Shown here: piece by piece, positions 26,569-35,725 of the stretch | How positions within the stretch are numbered: the stretch's first letter is position 1 | Layout: each line of letters starts with the position of its first letter | Source: Bacteroidales bacterium | GTDB taxonomy: Bacteria; Bacteroidota; Bacteroidia; Bacteroidales; Muribaculaceae | Length of the DNA: 60,900 bases | Direction: 5' to 3' | Assembly (NCBI GenBank): GCA_029007645.1 | Contig: JAQXIE010000001.1 | Location: 1-60,900 of the forward strand | The notes under the pieces: generated by a model | Databases searched by the model: none | What the model saw: the letters and a program-made list of their open reading frames with translations, nothing else | What the model was told of the DNA's origin: nothing | Program-made: the position numbers and the translations under genes

Positions 26569-28686
26569 TCAAATTTTCAATGTTAGTCTGACGGTCTGGC
26601 CGCGGCGCAGCGGGGCGCTGGGGGCGACTGACTGTGACACGACGTAGCCGGCTCCCGACAGACGTACGTTCACGCCACGTTGCTCCAGGATGCGTACGGC
26701 CGAGGCCGCTTCATAACCCATCAGGTTGGGCATCGCGCCGGGTGCGTCACCGGCATTTGCGCTGATGCGGCATACGCTCTTCACGCCCGCATGGCGTGCC
26801 ACGGCGCCGCTCTTCCTGTCGGTCGACGCCGCCAGAATTGGCTTGCTCGCGTGTTTCTCGCCATGGAAGTCCGACGAGTTGTCAAGCATACCGCGCGAGT
26901 ACATCTTGATGGCCATATTCTTCACGACCTGACCCGATGTGCGGTTGGCCGAGTTGCCGGCTCCCGACAGCACCAGCGCCATGCAGGAATAACGCGGATT
27001 GGAGTATGGGAAGAATCCGGCGAAGGCATAACGCCGTTTGGCCGTGTTGTAGACCCCTTTCTCCACAGGGTAGGCCGTTCCCGTCTTGCCGGCGACTTCC
27101 ACGCGGTCGTCGCGGACCAGACGTGCCGTGCCATGCTCGCCCCATACCACCTCGCGGATACACTCCCGCACCTTGCGGGCTGTCTCCGGACTGCATATAG
27201 TGGGGCGGATATACTGTATCGGCATTATCGAGTCAACGCCGTTCTCGTCGATTAGCCCCTTCACCAGATGTGGCCGGACGTATTTGCCGTCGTTGGCCAG
27301 CGCATTGTAGACCGACAGGGTGAACAGCGGAGGGAGTTCCGTATTGTATCCGTAAGCCTGGCGGGCCAGGTCGAGATGACGGGCCGTCATGGTGATATTG
27401 TTGCCGCGGCTGTCGTGGTCGACAAGGCGGCGGATCCGCGGGGTGCACTCCCCTGCTATTCCCGACCGTATCGGCTCGAAGAATCCCAGACCGGCCAAAC
27501 GGTCGTGCCATTTCTCGGGATTTTGGGCGTATCCGCGGAATATCACGCGGGCAATGCCAGTGTTGGACGACTGTTCGATCACTTGCTTCATGTTCTTCAT
27601 GCCGCTGCCGTGCGGGTCGCTGGTGCGCATGAAGGGGGAGCAGTCCACCAGGTCGTTGACGCTCTTCACCAGCCCGTCCTCGAAGGCTATCATCAGCGAG
27701 ATGGGTTTCATTACAGAACCCGGCTCGAAGGGGAGAACCGCCCGGTTCAAGGCCTCGCCGTAGGAGCCGTCATCAAGAAGCTCCACATTCGAAATGGCCT
27801 TGATCTCGCCTGTGGCAACCTCCATCAGTATGGCTGTGCCCCATTCCGCTCCGGCGTCCATGCATACCTTGGTCAGTTCCTCCTCGAGCATATCCTGCAG
27901 GTCGATGTCGATGGTGGTGAGAATGTCGTAACCGCGGCGCGCCGGCGTGGTCACCCAGTTGCCGAAGCCCGAGGTCAGAGCCACCTTCTTGGCCAGTCCG
28001 TAATGTCCGTACAGCAGCGAGTCGAGGTCCTTTTCCAGGCCCGAATATCCGTGGATTTCCTTGGTGGCTGCATTCTCGTTGACACGGCCGATGCTGCGGT
28101 AAGCCATCTTGCCGTAAGGGTAGATGCGTTTGTCGCGGGCCGTCTTGTAGAGCGGTGTGTTGCTGGTTTTGGCCCATTTGTTGACAAACGGGAAGTGGCG
28201 CACGCGCTCCATATCCTCAAGTGATCCTTTGGCAACAAGCCGCAAAGCGCGCGTGCGCTTCTCCGGCGCCTTCTCGAACTCACGTTTCAATTTAGTATGC
28301 CACGAGTATTTGGCAAGCGTGTCCGGGTTGCTGTTCAGATCCGCGCGTCTCGGATAGTACTTGTCGAGCGAGTCGGCAAACGCGCTGATCGAATCCTTGG
28401 GAAGTACCCGCAAATTGGCGATCTTGCTGTGCCGCAGGTCGAGCAGAATGTCGTAAACCCTCAGATTGCATGCCAGTATGTTGCCGTTGTCCGACAACAG
28501 ATTGCCACGCTCGGGCTTGATCGTGTCCACTTTGGCCAGCTCCTTCTTGCTGCGGTCGTTCCAGGCGGATGCCTCGATCACCGTCGTGTTGAACAACTTC
28601 ACCAGCACGCCGAATCCAAGCAGACAGAAGAATATCACGATCACCGCATAGCGGATCAATATGTTTTTCTTGTTGTTTTGTTTCAT
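26569..28686 (-). CDS. ftsI: septal penicillin-binding transpeptidase (FtsI/PBP2 type) with PASTA domain
   Basis: Class B PBP that cross-links septal peptidoglycan. 705 aa: membrane helix at residues 11-30, PBP dimer domain, then the transpeptidase with Ser324-Val-Met-Lys327 (EPGSVMKP), Ser373-Ser-Asn375 (EQSSNTG) and KTGT near residue 525 (VAGKTGTAYP). The last 60 residues (MPNLMGYEAASAVRILEQRG) are one PASTA domain, typical of Bacteroidota FtsI. Its ATG overlaps the ftsL stop by 4 bp. Confidence 0.95.
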   Translation of the reverse strand: MKQNNKKNILIRYAVIVIFFCLLGFGVLVKLFNTTVIEASAWNDRSKKELAKVDTIKPERGNLLSDNGNILACNLRVYDILLDLRHSKIANLRVLPKDSISAFADSLDKYYPRRADLNSNPDTLAKYSWHTKLKREFEKAPEKRTRALRLVAKGSLEDMERVRHFPFVNKWAKTSNTPLYKTARDKRIYPYGKMAYRSIGRVNENAATKEIHGYSGLEKDLDSLLYGHYGLAKKVALTSGFGNWVTTPARRGYDILTTIDIDLQDMLEEELTKVCMDAGAEWGTAILMEVATGEIKAISNVELLDDGSYGEALNRAVLPFEPGSVMKPISLMIAFEDGLVKSVNDLVDCSPFMRTSDPHGSGMKNMKQVIEQSSNTGIARVIFRGYAQNPEKWHDRLAGLGFFEPIRSGIAGECTPRIRRLVDHDSRGNNITMTARHLDLARQAYGYNTELPPLFTLSVYNALANDGKYVRPHLVKGLIDENGVDSIMPIQYIRPTICSPETARKVRECIREVVWGEHGTARLVRDDRVEVAGKTGTAYPVEKGVYNTAKRRYAFAGFFPYSNPRYSCMALVLSGAGNSANRTSGQVVKNMAIKMYSRGMLDNSSDFHGEKHASKPILAASTDRKSGAVARHAGVKSVCRISANAGDAPGAMPNLMGYEAASAVRILEQRGVNVRLSGAGYVVSQSVAPSAPLRRGQTVRLTLKI

Positions 28687-29054
28687 TTATCTGCGGGTTC
28701 TGGCTGGGATTTTGAAATAACGTAAGGAGGCTGTTCCTGGAATTCCAGGGGGAGGCCGCGTTCGCGGACCATGCGTTTCATCTCGGTCTCGCGTATCAGG
28801 GTCATGTATCGTTGCTTTTCGTCAAGCATACGGCTCTCGGTGCGGTGCAGTTCGTTGGTCAGGGCCTTGATCTCCTCCATTCGCGTCTTAGTGCGGTAGC
28901 GGAGTCCCATCAGGGCGATTACTACGACTATTATCACCAGAAGCAGCCATGCGTTGGTGCGGAAAAATTCCAGGGATATCGACTGACCGTAACGCAGTTC
29001 GTCGACCCATCCCGGTGATTTGTGCTTAGAATCTGTTTTCTTATCTGATTTCAT
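28683..29054 (-). CDS. ftsL: FtsL-like cell division protein
   Basis: A 123-aa bitopic protein: a basic cytoplasmic N-terminus, one membrane segment (WLLLVIIVVVIALMGL, about residues 36-51) and a periplasmic coiled coil (RMEEIKALTNELHRTESRML). Sequence conservation is low in this family; position between rsmH and ftsI plus topology support the call. It overlaps ftsI by 4 bp. Confidence 0.85.
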   Translation of the reverse strand: MKSDKKTDSKHKSPGWVDELRYGQSISLEFFRTNAWLLLVIIVVVIALMGLRYRTKTRMEEIKALTNELHRTESRMLDEKQRYMTLIRETEMKRMVRERGLPLEFQEQPPYVISKSQPEPADK

Positions 29055-29061
29055 TTTTGTG

Positions 29062-29982
29062 TCAGTGATTGTCGGATAACAGTTCGGCGACTCGCAGTTT
29101 GGCGCTGCGCGAACGTGGATTCTCCAGGATTTCCTGTTCGTCCGGAGTCACGGGCGTGCGGGTCACGAGCTTCCAGGGAGTCTGAATACGCCCGAAAATA
29201 TCCTGATCGACCTTGCCTTCAAGATTGCCGCTGCGCATAAAATTCTTGACCATGCGGTCCTCGATGCTGTGGTAAGTGATCACGGCAAGCCGTCCTCCGG
29301 GTTTCAGAATCTTCAGGGAGTTCATCAGCAGAATCTGCAGCGATCGCATCTCGTCGTTGGTTGCGATCCGCAACGACTGGAATACCTGCGCCAGATCCTT
29401 CTTCAGATTTTTGGGATTCATTGCCGGTGTGATGACCTCGACCAGACGGCCGGTCGTATCAATGGGTGAGTTGTCGCGGGCGCGGACCAGTGTGTTGGCG
29501 ATGGCCCCGGGCCGCTTAAGATCGGTATATGCCCGTAGCAGCGACTCTATTTCCTCCTGCGAGGCTGTGGCAAGAATATCGGCCGCTGTTTTTTCGCCGC
29601 TCTGGTTCATCCTCATGTCGAGCGGAGCGTCTTCACGGAAGGAGAATCCCCGTTCGGCACTGTCGAAGTGATGGAAAGAGACGCCAAGGTCGGCCAGCAT
29701 GCCGTCGACCTTGTCGACGCCATGAAAGCGCAGGAAGTTTGGGATAAACCGATAATCGGAATGTACAAATGTAAACCGGGGATCGTCCGGAGCATTCTGA
29801 AATGCATCGATGTCACGGTCAAAACCGAAGAGCCGGCCTGTGGGGCCAAGCCGTTGCAATATTGCGCGTGAATGGCCACCGCCACCAAATGTGGCGTCGA
29901 CATATATCCCCTCGGGATTGATGTTGAGCAAATCGAGAGTAGGTTCCAGCAGTGCCGGTGTATGATATACGTTCTCAGTCAT
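29062..29982 (-). CDS. rsmH: 16S rRNA m4C1402 methyltransferase
   Basis: RsmH methylates C1402 of 16S rRNA using SAM. Starting at 29982 (MTENVYHTPALLEPTLDLL) the protein is 306 aa, the family norm; in-frame ATGs at 30018 and 30054 would add atypical residues. Motifs: YVDATFGGGGHSRAIL (SAM loop), GMLADLGVSFHHFDSAERGF, and RLAVITYHSIEDRMVKNFM. It is the first gene of the dcw cluster here; mraZ, usually upstream, is absent. The 5' region (29983-30627) is divergent from ybeY. Confidence 0.94.
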   Translation of the reverse strand: MTENVYHTPALLEPTLDLLNINPEGIYVDATFGGGGHSRAILQRLGPTGRLFGFDRDIDAFQNAPDDPRFTFVHSDYRFIPNFLRFHGVDKVDGMLADLGVSFHHFDSAERGFSFREDAPLDMRMNQSGEKTAADILATASQEEIESLLRAYTDLKRPGAIANTLVRARDNSPIDTTGRLVEVITPAMNPKNLKKDLAQVFQSLRIATNDEMRSLQILLMNSLKILKPGGRLAVITYHSIEDRMVKNFMRSGNLEGKVDQDIFGRIQTPWKLVTRTPVTPDEQEILENPRSRSAKLRVAELLSDNH

Positions 29983-30143
29983 TTCAGCAGGGTATACCCT
30001 TGTGTTGATTGTTGTCATCGAAGAAATATGCATCCCTTGGCAAAGCCCTTGCAAGCAACCGTATTAGTAGGTTCAGTCTGGCTTGTTGCATGACATTGCG
30101 CAGAGAATGAATTCCTTCTTTTTCAGCGTTCTCTATTTGGGTG

Positions 30144-30175
30144 TAAAGTTAGTTATTTTTTGTAAACTATTTACA
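30144..30175 (-). promoter_or_regulatory. candidate dcw promoter with inverted-repeat operator
   Basis: On the minus strand TAACTTTA (30151-30144) is one base off the TAnnTTTG -7 element. Immediately upstream is a perfect dyad TGTAAA-CTA-TTTACA (30161-30175), positioned to overlap the promoter. No regulator can be named; it does not resemble the direct TGGGN repeats bound by MraZ. Confidence 0.3.
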
Positions 30176-30199
30176 ATGTGTAAATCGAAAAATTTAAAG

Positions 30200-30400
30200 A
30201 TTTGGCAAAAAGTTATCTACAATTTTTTGCGAAAAACATGACTTTGGCCCCAAATTTAGATAACATTCAGATAATCAGCTTGATTAAGTAAATATTGATG
30301 ACATTTTCTCAATAACTATAATTAATATCATAAATATATAATATAATTAAATAAGAATTAGAAATAATAAACATTGAAAATAATATCTTAACGGCCCGAC
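30200..30400. other. AT-rich divergent region, candidate replication origin
   Basis: Within the 570-bp gene-free gap between rsmH and ybeY. It holds TTATCTACA (30213-30221; one mismatch to the DnaA box TTATCCACA) and two weaker inverse copies, TTTAGATAA (30255-30263) and TTCAGATAA (30266-30274), followed by about 90 bp of nearly pure A/T (30300-30390) suited to unwinding. Genes diverge on both sides, mnmG (often origin-linked) is next to it and a parS site lies 2.7 kb away. No origin function is shown by sequence alone. Confidence 0.35.
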
Positions 30401-30562
30401 GTTGGATTATTTTACTGATTGCATGTCGGATGTCAAATCATTTTTAATTCTCAAGCAGTTAAATCCAGTCAAATTATTCTATAACTTGCTGAAATTAAGA
30501 AAGAAATTTTATTTTTCATTTTTCAATCCCGAAAACAGTATTCGGAGGGCCTTATGCCCCGG

Positions 30563-30594
30563 TTTGATATTTAGGGCAAAATTTTGTATTTTTG
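30563..30594 (+). promoter_or_regulatory. Bacteroidota promoter of ybeY-mnmG
   Basis: TTTG (30563-30566), 20 bp, TATTTTTG (30587-30594): a full consensus match. The predicted start near 30600 leaves a leader of about 28 nt before the ybeY ATG at 30628 and excludes the in-frame TTG at 30592. Confidence 0.75.
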
Positions 30595-30627
30595 TCAGTA
30601 GTACAAGGATTCAAAGTCTGTGTGGTG

Positions 30628-31062
30628 ATGAAATTCAATAAAATTGATTTTGAGGCTCAGGATGTGCCTATGCCCTCTCTTGATTTTCAACGACTGCGGA
30701 AATGGATTGTCAGCGTCGCCGAGGATTATGGTTACAGGGTCGGGAGACTGTTGTATGTTTTTGTCAGCGATAAGGAAATTCTGCAACTAAACCGGCAGGC
30801 TTTGGGCCATGACTATTTCACAGACATCATCACATTCGACTATACGCGCGGAGACACAATTCTCGGCGAGATGACAATATCGCTCGACACGGTGGCGAGC
30901 AATGCCGAAAGCGTCGGCGAGTCATACCAGCGGGAACTTCTGCGCGTTATTATACATGGAGTGCTCCATCTTGTGGGCATCAACGACAAGGGTCCCGGCG
31001 AGCGTGAAATTATGGAAGCCGCCGAGAACAGTGCTCTTGAAAAATATGAAGAAACAGTCTGA
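30628..31062 (+). CDS. ybeY: endoribonuclease YbeY
   Basis: Metal-dependent endoribonuclease for 16S rRNA 3'-end maturation and ribosome quality control. The start at 30628 (MKFNKIDFEAQ) gives 144 aa and follows a consensus promoter. The signature helix is RVIIHGVLHLVGINDKGPGE: the two His of HGxxH are present, but the third zinc ligand of the usual HGxLHLxGYDH is replaced (IND-K), a variant I believe occurs in Bacteroidota. mnmG starts 2 bp downstream. Confidence 0.9.
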   Translation: MKFNKIDFEAQDVPMPSLDFQRLRKWIVSVAEDYGYRVGRLLYVFVSDKEILQLNRQALGHDYFTDIITFDYTRGDTILGEMTISLDTVASNAESVGESYQRELLRVIIHGVLHLVGINDKGPGEREIMEAAENSALEKYEETV

Positions 31063-31064
31063 AG

Positions 31065-32963
31065 ATGCGGTTTGATTACGATGTGATAGTTGTGGGGGGC
31101 GGACATGCCGGCTGCGAGGCAGCCGTCGCTTCGGCGCGACTTGGTGCCAGGACTCTTCTTATCACTCTTGACATGAACAGGCTTGCACAGATGTCGTGCA
31201 ATCCCGCGATCGGCGGTATTGCAAAAGGCCAGATTGTTCGCGAGATAGACGCATTGGGAGGCCAGATGGGAATTGTGGCCGACCTGACAGCCATCCAGTT
31301 CAGGATGCTTAACCGTTCGAAGGGGCCGGCTGTGTGGTCGCCGCGCGTTCAATCCGACAGGGAGAAGTATATTGCACAATGGCGCAAAATAATCGAGAAT
31401 ACCGATAATCTCGAACTGTTTCAGGATAATGTCACAGGGCTGCGTACTGACACCGATAAGCATGTCACTGGTGTTGTCACCGCGTTGGGTTTTGAGTTCA
31501 GCGCAAAGGCCGTGGTGCTGACCGCCGGCACATTCCTAAACGGTCTGATGCATTTCGGGCCTGTAAAATTGCCCGGCGGCCGTATTGCGGAGCAGAACAG
31601 CACAGGGCTTACCGAGCAGCTCGTAGCGCTTGGCCTTCATGCCGACAGAATGAAGACTGGTACGCCCGCACGTATCGACGGCCGCACAATAGATTTCTCA
31701 CTCGCCGAACGTCAGGAGGGCGACCGGCTGGAATGGGAGAAGTTTTCGTATCTACCGCAAATTCGCCGCAGGCTCAGACAGCGCCCCTGCTGGATAGTAA
31801 GGACTAATCCGGAAGTTCATGCCGAAATAACGTCCCGACTGGATGAATCTCCAATGTATAACGGTGAGATTCAGAGTATTGGACCTCGATATTGCCCAAG
31901 CATAGAGACGAAATTAGTCACATTTGCCGACAAGGATTCGCATCAGTTGTTTTTGGAACCGGAAGGTGAAGAAACCGAGGAATACTATATAAACGGATTC
32001 TCCAGTTCGATGCCCTGGCGTGTGCAGGTAGATGCACTGTCGCATATTCCAGCCTTGAAGAACGCCAATCTATTCCGTCCGGGATATGCGATTGAATATG
32101 ACTTTTTTGACCCCACGGATCTTCGTCACAGTCTGGAATCGAAGATAGTCGGCGGCCTCTATATGGCCGGTCAGGTTAACGGTACCACCGGCTATGAGGA
32201 GGCGGCCGCGCAGGGTCTTATGGCCGGAATAAACGCCGCATTGGCAGTGCGCGGAGAATCCCCTCTAGTGCTTGGACGGGACCAGGCTTATATCGGAGTT
32301 CTGATAGATGACCTTGTCACGAAAGGCGTGGACGAGCCTTACCGTATGTTCACCTCGCGTGCTGAGTATCGTATTCTGCTGCGTCAGGACGATGCGGATA
32401 TGCGGCTCACTCCGATTGGCTATAAGATAGGCCTTGCCGACAAGGAGAGATATGAAGCTATGATCTACAAGAAACGAGAACTCGATTTGTTGATAGAATG
32501 GGCGGAAAAAACCAATATAAAATCAACCGCGGAATTCAATTCGTTTCTTGAGAGCGTCGGTACTTCTCCGATGACAGCCTCGATCAAGGTTGCGGATCTG
32601 GTGCGCCGGCCTCAGCTATCGTTCCGGATACTTGCCGAGCATATTGAGCGAGTTGCTCAAAGATTGGGTAGTGTGGATCTTGCCGAGCAGGGCATACGTC
32701 GCGAGGAGATAGTTCAGGCTGCCGAAATATTGTTGAAGTATTCCGGCTATATTGAACGCGAAGCCGAGATTGCCGCGAAGCAGAAGCGTCTCGAGGATGT
32801 CAGAATTCCTGACTCGTTTAGGTTTGACGAAATCGAAGCAATCTCGACCGAAGCCAGGCAGAAACTGACCCGTATACGTCCTGCTACGATAGGGCAGGCC
32901 TCGAGGATCCCCGGAGTATCACCGGCTGACATCAGCATACTGCTGTTGTTGATGCATCGATGA
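31065..32963 (+). CDS. mnmG: tRNA uridine-5-carboxymethylaminomethyl modification enzyme MnmG (GidA)
   Basis: With MnmE, MnmG installs the cmnm5 group on U34 of several tRNAs using FAD and folate. 632 aa, full length: FAD loop VIVVGGGHAGCEAAVASARL, CNPAIGGIAKGQIVREIDAL, GTFLNGLMHFG, LKTGTPARID-type region (MKTGTPARIDGRT), FTSRAEYRILLRQDDAD and a helical C-terminus ending in the PGVSPADISIL region. gidA is commonly close to oriC in bacteria, which fits the AT-rich region upstream and parS just downstream. Confidence 0.96.
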   Translation: MRFDYDVIVVGGGHAGCEAAVASARLGARTLLITLDMNRLAQMSCNPAIGGIAKGQIVREIDALGGQMGIVADLTAIQFRMLNRSKGPAVWSPRVQSDREKYIAQWRKIIENTDNLELFQDNVTGLRTDTDKHVTGVVTALGFEFSAKAVVLTAGTFLNGLMHFGPVKLPGGRIAEQNSTGLTEQLVALGLHADRMKTGTPARIDGRTIDFSLAERQEGDRLEWEKFSYLPQIRRRLRQRPCWIVRTNPEVHAEITSRLDESPMYNGEIQSIGPRYCPSIETKLVTFADKDSHQLFLEPEGEETEEYYINGFSSSMPWRVQVDALSHIPALKNANLFRPGYAIEYDFFDPTDLRHSLESKIVGGLYMAGQVNGTTGYEEAAAQGLMAGINAALAVRGESPLVLGRDQAYIGVLIDDLVTKGVDEPYRMFTSRAEYRILLRQDDADMRLTPIGYKIGLADKERYEAMIYKKRELDLLIEWAEKTNIKSTAEFNSFLESVGTSPMTASIKVADLVRRPQLSFRILAEHIERVAQRLGSVDLAEQGIRREEIVQAAEILLKYSGYIEREAEIAAKQKRLEDVRIPDSFRFDEIEAISTEARQKLTRIRPATIGQASRIPGVSPADISILLLLMHR

Positions 32964-32996
32964 CTCTTAATACGCAGTATAAGTGAATCCAATGAT

Positions 32997-33012
32997 TGTT
33001 CCACGTGGAACA
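32997..33012. promoter_or_regulatory. parS (ParB binding site)
   Basis: TGTTCCACGTGGAACA is an exact match to the ParB consensus TGTTNCACGTGNAACA and sits at the centre of a 20-bp perfect palindrome (32995-33014). parS sites cluster around chromosome origins and nucleate the ParB-CTP/SMC loading complex. It lies in the 86-bp gap between mnmG and apt. No second copy was found on scanning the window for CACGTG palindromes. Confidence 0.88.
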
Positions 33013-33049
33013 ATCTGCAAAAATAAAATCAACTCAAAGACTAAATAAG

Positions 33050-33574
33050 ATGGAGATTGAAGACCTTAAACTTACCATCCGCGACATTCCCGATTTTCCC
33101 AGCAAGGGAATAATCTTCCGCGATCTGACGACCCTTCTCAAGGACGGGCAGGCGTTGCACATGCTGAGCGATGAGCTGATAGATATGTACCGTGGAAAAG
33201 GCATCACGAAAGTGGTGGGTATCGAAAGCCGCGGTTTCATCTGCGGCTCGATCATGGCCTATGCTCTCAATGCTGGTTTCGTGCCTGCACGCAAACCCGG
33301 CAAACTGCCCGCTGTTACCGTCAAGAAATCGTATGCCAAAGAGTACGGCGTCGATATGATTGAGCTCCACAGCGACGCAATCAATGAGGATGATGTAGTT
33401 CTGATCCATGATGACCTCCTGGCAACCGGTGGCACGATGCGTGCGTGCTATGACCTGGTAAAGTCGATGAATCCGAAGAAAATCTATATTAATTTTGCAG
33501 TCGAACTTACCGCTCTGAACGGTAGGAGTGTCTTCCCGCCGCAGGTGGAGGTGACTTCGCTGCTGAAATATTGA
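33050..33574 (+). CDS. apt: adenine phosphoribosyltransferase
   Basis: Salvages adenine to AMP with PRPP. The start at 33050 (MEIEDLKLTIRDIPDFPSKG) gives 174 aa, the normal size; an upstream in-frame ATG at 32996 runs through the parS palindrome and is rejected. Motifs: PSKGIIFRDLTTLL, GIESRGFICGS, RKPGKLPAVTVKKSY, and the PRPP loop VVLIHDDLLATGGTM. A hairpin terminator follows. Gene order mnmG-apt-uvrC is conserved in Bacteroidales. Confidence 0.95.
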   Translation: MEIEDLKLTIRDIPDFPSKGIIFRDLTTLLKDGQALHMLSDELIDMYRGKGITKVVGIESRGFICGSIMAYALNAGFVPARKPGKLPAVTVKKSYAKEYGVDMIELHSDAINEDDVVLIHDDLLATGGTMRACYDLVKSMNPKKIYINFAVELTALNGRSVFPPQVEVTSLLKY

Positions 33575-33733: not shown

Positions 33734-35725
33734 ATGATGATGAAAAATAACGATGAATCCGATATCATGAATAATCAAGAGGGGCTTGAATCGCCTCGGC
33801 TGTCCAAATCCCAGATGCAGGAAATTTTAGCGGGCACAGGAAGAAATATCGATGAAATCGGAGGATTTGATGTCGAGATATCCGAAAAGCGCACTCAGCA
33901 GGAAATCGCCGAGAATCGCCCCGGTCCGAAACTGCGTGAGAAAATCCTGAATCTCCCCGATCTCCCCGGCATTTATATGTATATCGACCGCCGGGGCAAG
34001 GTTATTTATGTCGGCAAAGCCAAAAGACTGAAACGTCGCGTTTCGAGTTATTTCAACCGCCGCCATGATTCAACACGTACCAATCTGTTGGTGCGCAGCA
34101 TCGCCGACCTCCGTTATGTTGTGGTGCATTCCGAAGAGGATGCCCTGCACATGGAAAATGCCACGATCAAGGAGTATCAGCCCCATTACAATGTCCTGCT
34201 TAAGGACGACAAATCCTATCCCTGGATCGTGGTCACCAAGGAACTCTATCCTCGTGTATTCATGACCCGCGACCGCAATATCAAGGGCCAATATTTCGGT
34301 CCTTTCGGAAATGTTCAGGCCGCACGAACCGTGCTCGATCTGATCCGTGATACTTACCCGCTCCGAAGCTGCCGGCATCCGCTGGATGAAAAAGGAATCG
34401 CGCGCATGAAGTATCCTCTATGTCTCGACTATCATATACAAAAGTGCGCCGGGCCATGTCAGGGCCGGATCAGTCCCGAAGATTATGCCGCCATCATTGC
34501 CAGAGTCAAGCAGATTCTTCGCGGAGAAACCGTAGAACTGGAAAAATCGTTGCTGGCCGAGATGCAGAAGCTCAGCGAGGATTGGAAATTTGAGCAGGCT
34601 CAGGCCGTCAAGGAAAAATATGAGCTTGTGCGCTCTTACAATATCAAACGCGTGATAGGCGAGCGCGACACAATCGACATCGATCTCTTCGCATATGTGG
34701 AGAATGAGGACCGCGCTTTCGTAAATTTCATGCATCTGCATCATGGCGCCGTGACTCAAAGCCTCAATCTCGAATTCCGTCGCGGCAGGGGAGAAATCAC
34801 TACCGGCGAAATCCTGTCCCGGGCCGTGGCCGAGGTTGCCGAACGTTTCAACCGCAAGTTTCAGGAGGTGCTTGTGCCCTTCCTGCCGGATGTGCAGTTT
34901 GACGGCGTGAATTTTGTAATCCCTCAACGCGGCGAGAAAAAGCGCGTGCTGGAGGTCGGATTGAAAAATGCCGCTCAATATATGCGCGACTGCGAGAAGC
35001 AGGCCGAACTGCTGACCCCCGACCGATCGACCGACCTGCTGATGCAACGAATGCAGAGCGATTTCCGCCTGCCCGTCGAACCCCGGCATATCGAGTGCTT
35101 CGACAACTCGAATATTCAGGGCACGAATCCGGTGGCGAGCTGCGTGGTGTTCCGAAACGGTCGTCCCTCGAAGCGCGATTACCGACATTTCTGTATCAAG
35201 ACTGTGGTGGGTGCAGACGACTTTGCATCGATGAAGGAAGTGCTGCACCGCCGTTACACGCGCATGATGGCCGAGGGTGAGCCGCTGCCGCAATTAGTTG
35301 TTGTGGATGGCGGCAAGGGTCAGCTCAGTGCCGCCGTCGAGGCCTTCGACGAGATGGGCATCCGCGGAGAGGTCGCCCTGGTCGGTATCGCAAAGCGTCT
35401 CGAGGGAATTTATTATCCCGGCGACACATTGCCGCTTTATCTTGATAAGACGTCCCCGAGCCTTCGGGTCATTCAGGCTCTCCGTGACGAGGCCCACCGC
35501 TTCGGGATCACCCATCACCGCGACCGCCGCAGCAAAGGGCAGATAGCCAGCGAATTGGATAACATCAAAGGCATCGGGCCGGGCACATCCGCGGCGTTGA
35601 TGAAGACATTCAAATCTTTGAAACGTGCCAAAGAGGCTGACTACGAGCAGCTTGCCGCCGCCGTCGGCGCCGCCAAGGCCCGCCTCCTCTATGCTCACTT
35701 TCACCCCGAAACGCCAAATTACTGA
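33734..35725 (+). CDS. uvrC: excinuclease ABC subunit C
   Basis: Makes the dual incisions of nucleotide excision repair with UvrAB. 663 aa: an N-terminal extension of about 70 aa, acidic and probably disordered (start ambiguous among several ATGs at 33734-33767), then the GIY-YIG nuclease LPGIYMYIDRRGKVIYVGKA, a Cys cluster (CRHP, CLDYHIQKCAGPC), the UVR motif region (KLSEDWKFEQAQAVKEKYEL), the RNase H-like nuclease (CFDNSNIQGTNPVASCVVF, VVDGGKGQLSAA) and C-terminal HhH (LDNIKGIGPGTSAALM). Its stop lies in the first of three 23-bp repeats. Confidence 0.95.
   Translation: MMMKNNDESDIMNNQEGLESPRLSKSQMQEILAGTGRNIDEIGGFDVEISEKRTQQEIAENRPGPKLREKILNLPDLPGIYMYIDRRGKVIYVGKAKRLKRRVSSYFNRRHDSTRTNLLVRSIADLRYVVVHSEEDALHMENATIKEYQPHYNVLLKDDKSYPWIVVTKELYPRVFMTRDRNIKGQYFGPFGNVQAARTVLDLIRDTYPLRSCRHPLDEKGIARMKYPLCLDYHIQKCAGPCQGRISPEDYAAIIARVKQILRGETVELEKSLLAEMQKLSEDWKFEQAQAVKEKYELVRSYNIKRVIGERDTIDIDLFAYVENEDRAFVNFMHLHHGAVTQSLNLEFRRGRGEITTGEILSRAVAEVAERFNRKFQEVLVPFLPDVQFDGVNFVIPQRGEKKRVLEVGLKNAAQYMRDCEKQAELLTPDRSTDLLMQRMQSDFRLPVEPRHIECFDNSNIQGTNPVASCVVFRNGRPSKRDYRHFCIKTVVGADDFASMKEVLHRRYTRMMAEGEPLPQLVVVDGGKGQLSAAVEAFDEMGIRGEVALVGIAKRLEGIYYPGDTLPLYLDKTSPSLRVIQALRDEAHRFGITHHRDRRSKGQIASELDNIKGIGPGTSAALMKTFKSLKRAKEADYEQLAAAVGAAKARLLYAHFHPETPNY

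Follow-up and report, generated by a model that had tools for sequence, protein, structure and literature searches.

The window, i.e., the whole analyzed stretch of 60,900 nucleotides from a Bacteroidales bacterium, encodes on its plus strand ybeY (30592–31062, start codon approximate; Pfam PF02130), mnmG, also named gidA (31065–32963; PF01134, 523 bits), a gene for an adenine phosphoribosyltransferase-like protein (33050–33574; PF00156), presumably apt, and uvrC (33734–35725; PF08459). On the minus strand, rsmH (mraW), ftsL-like, and penicillin-binding transpeptidase genes, all recognized by Pfam, form the start of a division and cell-wall cluster (26569–30054). Minus-strand open reading frames further down to about 13.5 kb had syntenic matches in the same-genus genome G196, whose synteny with the window covers most genes between about 13.5 and 39 kb. 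No Rfam family reached its gathering score in the 28–38 kb part of the window.

The mnmG stop codon (TGA, 32961–32963) and the likely apt start codon (ATG, 33050) are separated by 86 bp. A sequence-only reading had described here a short intergenic gap holding an exact ParB consensus within a perfect palindrome of 20 bp; the gap and the consensus were borne out, and the palindrome is indeed perfect but measures 22 bp. Read directly from the window, TGTTCCACGTGGAACA at 32997–33012 (no strand) is an exact match to parS, and its core lies 33 bp downstream of the mnmG stop codon and 37 bp upstream of the apt ATG. A palindrome scan gave GATTGTTCCACGTGGAACAATC at 32994–33015 (no strand) as the maximal perfect palindrome around the core; it is the longest in the window, the runner-up being 14 bp. 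The palindromic extension, i.e., the outer 3 bp on each side of the 16-bp core, was not kept in relatives. As listed, the apt open reading frame starts with TTG at 32996 and would run through the site; ATG 33050 is the likelier start. An apt homologue also follows mnmG in many relatives.

Copy number of the exact site

The genome is a draft of 2.01 Mb in 112 contigs. Base composition predicts 0.00016 exact occurrences of TGTTNCACGTGNAACA for the window and 0.005 for the genome; one was found, the window site. The control pattern, the parS consensus read backwards, had no match in the genome with zero mismatches. When up to two mismatches were allowed, three further places appeared in the genome versus nine for the reversed control; the control thus exceeded the near matches, and none of them was counted as a second site. 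With up to three mismatches, the window contained three matches versus 1.74 expected, which is the chance level, and only the exact one stood out. The genome search suggested by the sequence-only reading, for which evenly scattered sites would have spoken against parS, thus returned a single exact site.

Exact parS was found in 95 of the 99 genomes of the family (84 with one copy, 10 with two, and 1 with three), in 80 of 119 genomes of the order (two at most), and in 226 of 296 genomes of the phylum (a few having as many as five), the studied genome being included in each set. The reversed control matched in 1/99 family genomes (G201), in 0/119 of the order, and in 3/296 of the phylum (G292, G362, G416). 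The 39 order genomes and four family genomes with no exact match were counted against the parS assignment. Among the 22 two-site genomes listed for the order, both sites were within about 2 kb of each other in 18; one further pair was 13 kb apart, and in three genomes the sites were on different contigs. Low copy number and unscattered sites, which are expected of parS, were observed (one copy in the studied genome, 1–3 in 95 of the 99 family genomes, 0–2 in the order, and 0–5 in the phylum).

ParA and ParB proteins

A single ParB_N protein was encoded in the genome, on contig C29 and not on the contig that carries parS. Its ParB_N, HTH_ParB, and ParB_C domains all scored above the cut-offs, as did TIGR00180. 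The 264-aa protein encoded directly upstream of parB is an AAA_31 (ParA-type) ATPase; it passed no cut-off among the 25 NCBIfam models listed. Both parA and parB, the absence of which had been named in advance as refuting the assignment, are therefore present, although on another contig.

The ParB protein aligned with Caulobacter ParB, Spo0J, and other solved ParBs and has kept GERRWRA and ENIQRQDLN, which are CTP-binding motifs of ParB proteins. At the positions corresponding to the four specificity residues, it has R, H, K, and G according to the alignment. These residues are R173, T179, A184, and G201 in Caulobacter ParB and Q, K, K, and R in Noc (PMC7383237). R and G at the positions of R173 and G201 were found in all 30 family ParBs that were read, the studied one included. 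Two residues were counted against the assignment: residue 172, which is K versus S in Caulobacter, and residue 184, which is K as in Noc.

ParB_N proteins were present in 97 of the 99 family genomes; the two genomes that lack them (G144 and G163) are draft assemblies in about 230 and 490 contigs, respectively, and both have parS. Several family genomes (G153, G173, G188, G199, G201, and others) encode additional long ParB_N proteins of about 560–690 aa, perhaps belonging to mobile elements.

SMC_prok_B did not reach its cut-off in any of 10 genomes (best score 37 bits versus 567), while 10 of 14 control genomes passed it.

Position of parS beside mnmG

The least biased set of loci comprised 80 named loci fetched by the MnmG protein and not by parS, i.e., the best 80 among the 586 matches listed, all of them close relatives of the MnmG studied here. 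In the locus comparisons, gene ends were set by lengthening the tblastn matches to the size of this MnmG, and gaps are approximate by a few bases. Exact parS occurred anywhere in the fetched DNA at 66 of the 80 loci and within 0–100 bp past the mnmG stop codon at 59; among the other 21, 17 had a copy with one or two mismatches in the same interval (in L085 it overlaps the stop codon by 2 bp). Neither was found just past the stop codon at L057 (exact sites at 214 and 448 bp), L058 (one exact site inside mnmG), L071 (two exact sites, 3.6 and 4.6 kb away), and L102 (no site). In the far flanks, 11 matches with up to two mismatches were counted in 528455 positions, so that about 0.2 of the 80 loci would be expected to have such a match by chance.

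Near matches in Bacteroides- and Prevotella-like loci often deviate from the consensus at the first base alone. Such variants after mnmG, with A or C for T, were seen at L065, L070, L072, L073, and L081, as well as at L085, L092, L107, L110, and L114; most of these loci have Bacteroides or Prevotella in their titles. They raise the question of a matching change in the ParB proteins of those loci. An exact site 0.6–1.1 kb past the mnmG stop codon was seen at L037, L088, L104, L107, L109, L111, and L115; it lies 10 to 530 bp past the apt match, and six of these seven loci have an exact site at mnmG as well.

Loci fetched by the parS site itself were chosen by the search program and are more biased than the MnmG set. 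Within the family, mnmG was found within 100 bp of the site in 29 of 30 such loci, and the remaining one is a piece of 2.2 kb in which uvrC was matched but mnmG was not. Within the order, mnmG was within 200 bp in 26 of 30 (the site being on its 5′ side in three of these); of the other four, one had mnmG at 604 bp, again with the site on the 5′ side, and three had no mnmG match. Other families of the class contributed 29 more loci, of which 22 had mnmG within 0.7 kb and seven had no mnmG match. The nearest site was on the 5′ side of mnmG in 21 of these 22, with a ybeY match in 20 of the 21. Judging from these sequence comparisons, the position of parS beside mnmG is strongly conserved. In the literature covered, mostly without subscription papers and the survey of Livny et al. 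(2007), no report of parS at mnmG in Bacteroidota was found.

The same loci bear on other explanations of the palindrome. It could act in RNA, as a hairpin that forms an intrinsic terminator or a processing site between mnmG and apt. It lies just past the mnmG stop codon, and the predicted RNA fold has nine pairs, an ACGU loop, and an energy of −12.4 kcal/mol (z −2.4), a value equalled by 6 of 200 shuffles. However, the palindrome is followed by no T run, the terminator scan did not list the site, and the G+C hairpin with subsequent T run that defines an intrinsic terminator was not found at parS. Core positions 5 and 12 form a Watson–Crick pair in only 25 of the 77 exact sites at MnmG loci (U-G pairing is possible in another 23), and the flanks of these 77 sites show little complementarity; hence, a motif for protein binding to double-stranded DNA is conserved, and the full hairpin is not. 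Also counted against this reading, the site mostly precedes mnmG in other families of the class. We regard an RNA function as very improbable.

An intergenic palindrome 37 bp before the apt ATG could also be a transcription-factor operator controlling apt or mnmG. Yet the site stays at mnmG where no apt match was found (e.g., Parabacteroides L064 and Alistipes L083), lies on the opposite side of mnmG in other families, is usually present in one copy per genome, and matches the ParB consensus exactly, positions 5 and 12 being the variable ones. The operator is therefore a similarly slight possibility. A parS site of a mobile element, or a vestigial site no longer used by ParB, might be suspected from the long ParB-like proteins of some relatives; against this stand the housekeeping gene surroundings, the synteny with G196, the order-wide conservation at one place, and the single ParB_N protein of the studied genome, and we consider it extremely unlikely.

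We conclude with high confidence that the palindrome is the chromosomal parS site, i.e., the centromere, of this Bacteroidales bacterium, which its closest MnmG relatives place probably in the Muribaculaceae. The evidence consists of the site itself, its uniqueness, the ParA and ParB proteins, the ParB residues, the conservation at mnmG, and the closeness to the skew minimum in relatives (see below). Consensus match, few copies, cognate parA and parB, and ParB residues of the parS-reading type, which are among the features that identify a parS site, were all found. By analogy with established ParABS systems, ParB encoded elsewhere on the chromosome would bind the 16-bp core as a dimer, CTP would switch it into a sliding clamp, and the protein would spread from parS into the adjacent DNA; ParA would then move the ParB–DNA complex, so that the replication-origin region would be segregated first. 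A review of known systems describes the loading of ParB at parS, its spreading, and its movement by ParA, through which the origin region separates first (PMC7333895).

Replication origin and known systems

The sequence-only reading had placed the window within the origin region. This was supported, with limits: in relatives the skew minimum is near parS, the window itself contains no interior minimum, and for the studied draft genome the closeness to the origin is judged from those relatives. A skew minimum far from the site had been named as contrary evidence; in five relatives, four of the same family and one (G444) of another family of the class, it was 14–44 kb from parS. In genome G201, a single contig of 3.307 Mb, the sampled skew is mostly negative at 0.17–1.37 Mb, positive at 1.38–2.7 Mb, and mixed thereafter; the fine minimum at 1,376,725 is 43.7 kb from parS at 1,420,462. 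It falls in a gap of 27–32% GC after pgi (identified by Pfam PF00342), which contains a cluster of DnaA-box-like repeats of the TTATCAACA type (1,376,669–1,377,033). In G173, 14.1 kb separate the minimum from parS, and the minimum adjoins a 0.95-kb gap of 20–29% GC with two TTATCAAC nearby; the minimum of G444, with an AT-rich gap, is 17.9 kb from the nearer parS. The distance was 17.9 kb in G210 (100 kb read) and 24.5 kb in G208 (140 kb read); at these two minima, neither a DnaA-box cluster nor an AT-rich or lowest-GC gap was found. In Parabacteroides gordonii (G216), the sampled sign change is diffuse (2.33–2.50 Mb), 76–250 kb from parS, and the 160 kb read around parS contained no interior minimum.

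AT-rich oriC candidates at the minima are located at 2944302–2945254 in G173, 1376650–1377400 in G201, and about 4272200–4273000 in G444. They have different neighbors, namely pgi in G201 and a leuS-side gene in G173, which indicates that the origin and the parS–mnmG pair are not fixed in arrangement.

In the window, the skew of the plus strand is mostly positive (11 of 59 two-kb windows are negative), and the cumulative skew is lowest at position 697, at the left edge, and highest at the right end. In G196, the 40 kb that surround parS likewise contained no interior minimum. Since no interior minimum was found in the window, oriC of this genome is probably outside it; judging from the relatives, the window would be within some tens of kb of oriC. 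Positive skew is also seen at parS of G201, where the origin is to the left, and oriC is thus more likely to the left of the window. Synteny with G208, G173, G201, and G210 is poor beyond ybeY–mnmG–apt–uvrC, so the side of the origin cannot be transferred from them.

Other indicators of the origin were considered and rejected. TTATCMACA had 22 matches on both strands of the studied genome, equal to the 22 of its reversed control; one close pair was on contig C17. The contig with pgi was not used as an origin locator because in G173 this gene, at 2.688 Mb, is not linked to the origin, the skew minimum being at 2.946 Mb. The AT-rich gap of about 0.5 kb at 30055–30591 (down to 29.5% GC), between rsmH and ybeY, was considered as oriC because these genes diverge from it; it contains neither a TTATCAAC repeat nor a change of skew.

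Distances of dnaA and parB from parS were obtained for the genomes in which they share one contig with parS (five each). For dnaA they were 638 kb in G201, about 1.06 Mb in G173 (if circular), 375 kb in G210, 501 kb in G128, and 1.19 Mb in P. gordonii; for parB, 967 kb in G201, 575 kb in G173, 872 kb in G210, 151 kb in G128, and 89 kb in G208. In G208 and G170, dnaA and parS are on separate contigs. With dnaA and parB at 89 kb to about 1.2 Mb from parS, dnaA and parAB are poor landmarks of the origin here and parS–mnmG is a good one; in the five measurable genomes, dnaA is misleading by hundreds of kb. The chromosome of G201 also contains 25 weak DnaA-family hits with nearly equal scores (262-aa frames, 27.5 bits) spread over its length, perhaps a helper ATPase of a multi-copy insertion sequence.

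The system is of a kind already known, chromosomal ParABS. Its layout is mildly surprising: the centromere stays with mnmG, shows no linkage to parAB or dnaA, and occurs in genomes in which no canonical SMC was detected. We are inclined, with some reservation, to extend this layout to Bacteroidia as a whole. One parS, or sometimes a few close copies, would be tied to mnmG, not more than some tens of kb from oriC; Bacteroidales would mostly have it at the 3′ end of the gene and the other families of the class mostly at the 5′ end, parAB and dnaA would have moved away, and the centromere would work without a canonical SMC. If so, the origin in drafts and metagenome assemblies should be marked by parS beside mnmG and not by dnaA, and either ParA alone or a yet unrecognized condensin would be the partner of the ParB complex. 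The combination of mnmG attachment, distant parAB and dnaA, and missing SMC is a moderately interesting layout and makes parS–mnmG a simple and useful landmark by which to find the origin region in this large group, which comprises gut and environmental bacteria. It bears on the setting of chromosome starts and on growth-rate estimates from read coverage, and it offers a single place at which to test how ParB is loaded and the origin segregated in Bacteroidota, a phylum apparently without the usual SMC partner.

The system resembles those of Bacillus subtilis Spo0J/ParB and Caulobacter ParB in its 16-bp consensus, genomic parAB, ParB residues of the parS type, low copy number, and location near the skew minimum (here in relatives). 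In the usual layout, parAB are near parS. Unlike in those systems, parS is attached to mnmG here, parB is 89–967 kb and dnaA 375 kb–1.19 Mb from parS in genomes with both on one contig, and the SMC_prok_B cut-off was reached in 0/10 genomes.

The NBS sequence of Noc is a related 16-bp palindrome read by a ParB paralogue and differs from parS at positions 1 and 6 (PMC7383237). We considered and rejected an NBS at this locus: the site is exact parS, and the ParB protein, unlike Noc, has R and G instead of Q and R and scores 238 bits, below the Noc cut-off of 315 (TIGR04285).

The closest parallel in gut bacteria is the Hi-C study of the OMM12 species, which include Bacteroides caecimuris and Muribaculum intestinale. 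According to the passages of that study considered here, clusters of parS are located at the origins of 12 gut species, including two Bacteroidota, no known condensin is present in B. caecimuris or M. intestinale, and the origin is not always at dnaA (PMC10197239). In all three respects, the chromosomes analyzed here appear similar. The origin calls of that study, in which parS chose between two skew switches with support from coverage, are not fully independent of parS (PMC10197239). Those passages name no gene beside parS; the linkage to mnmG over hundreds of genomes comes from the present analysis.
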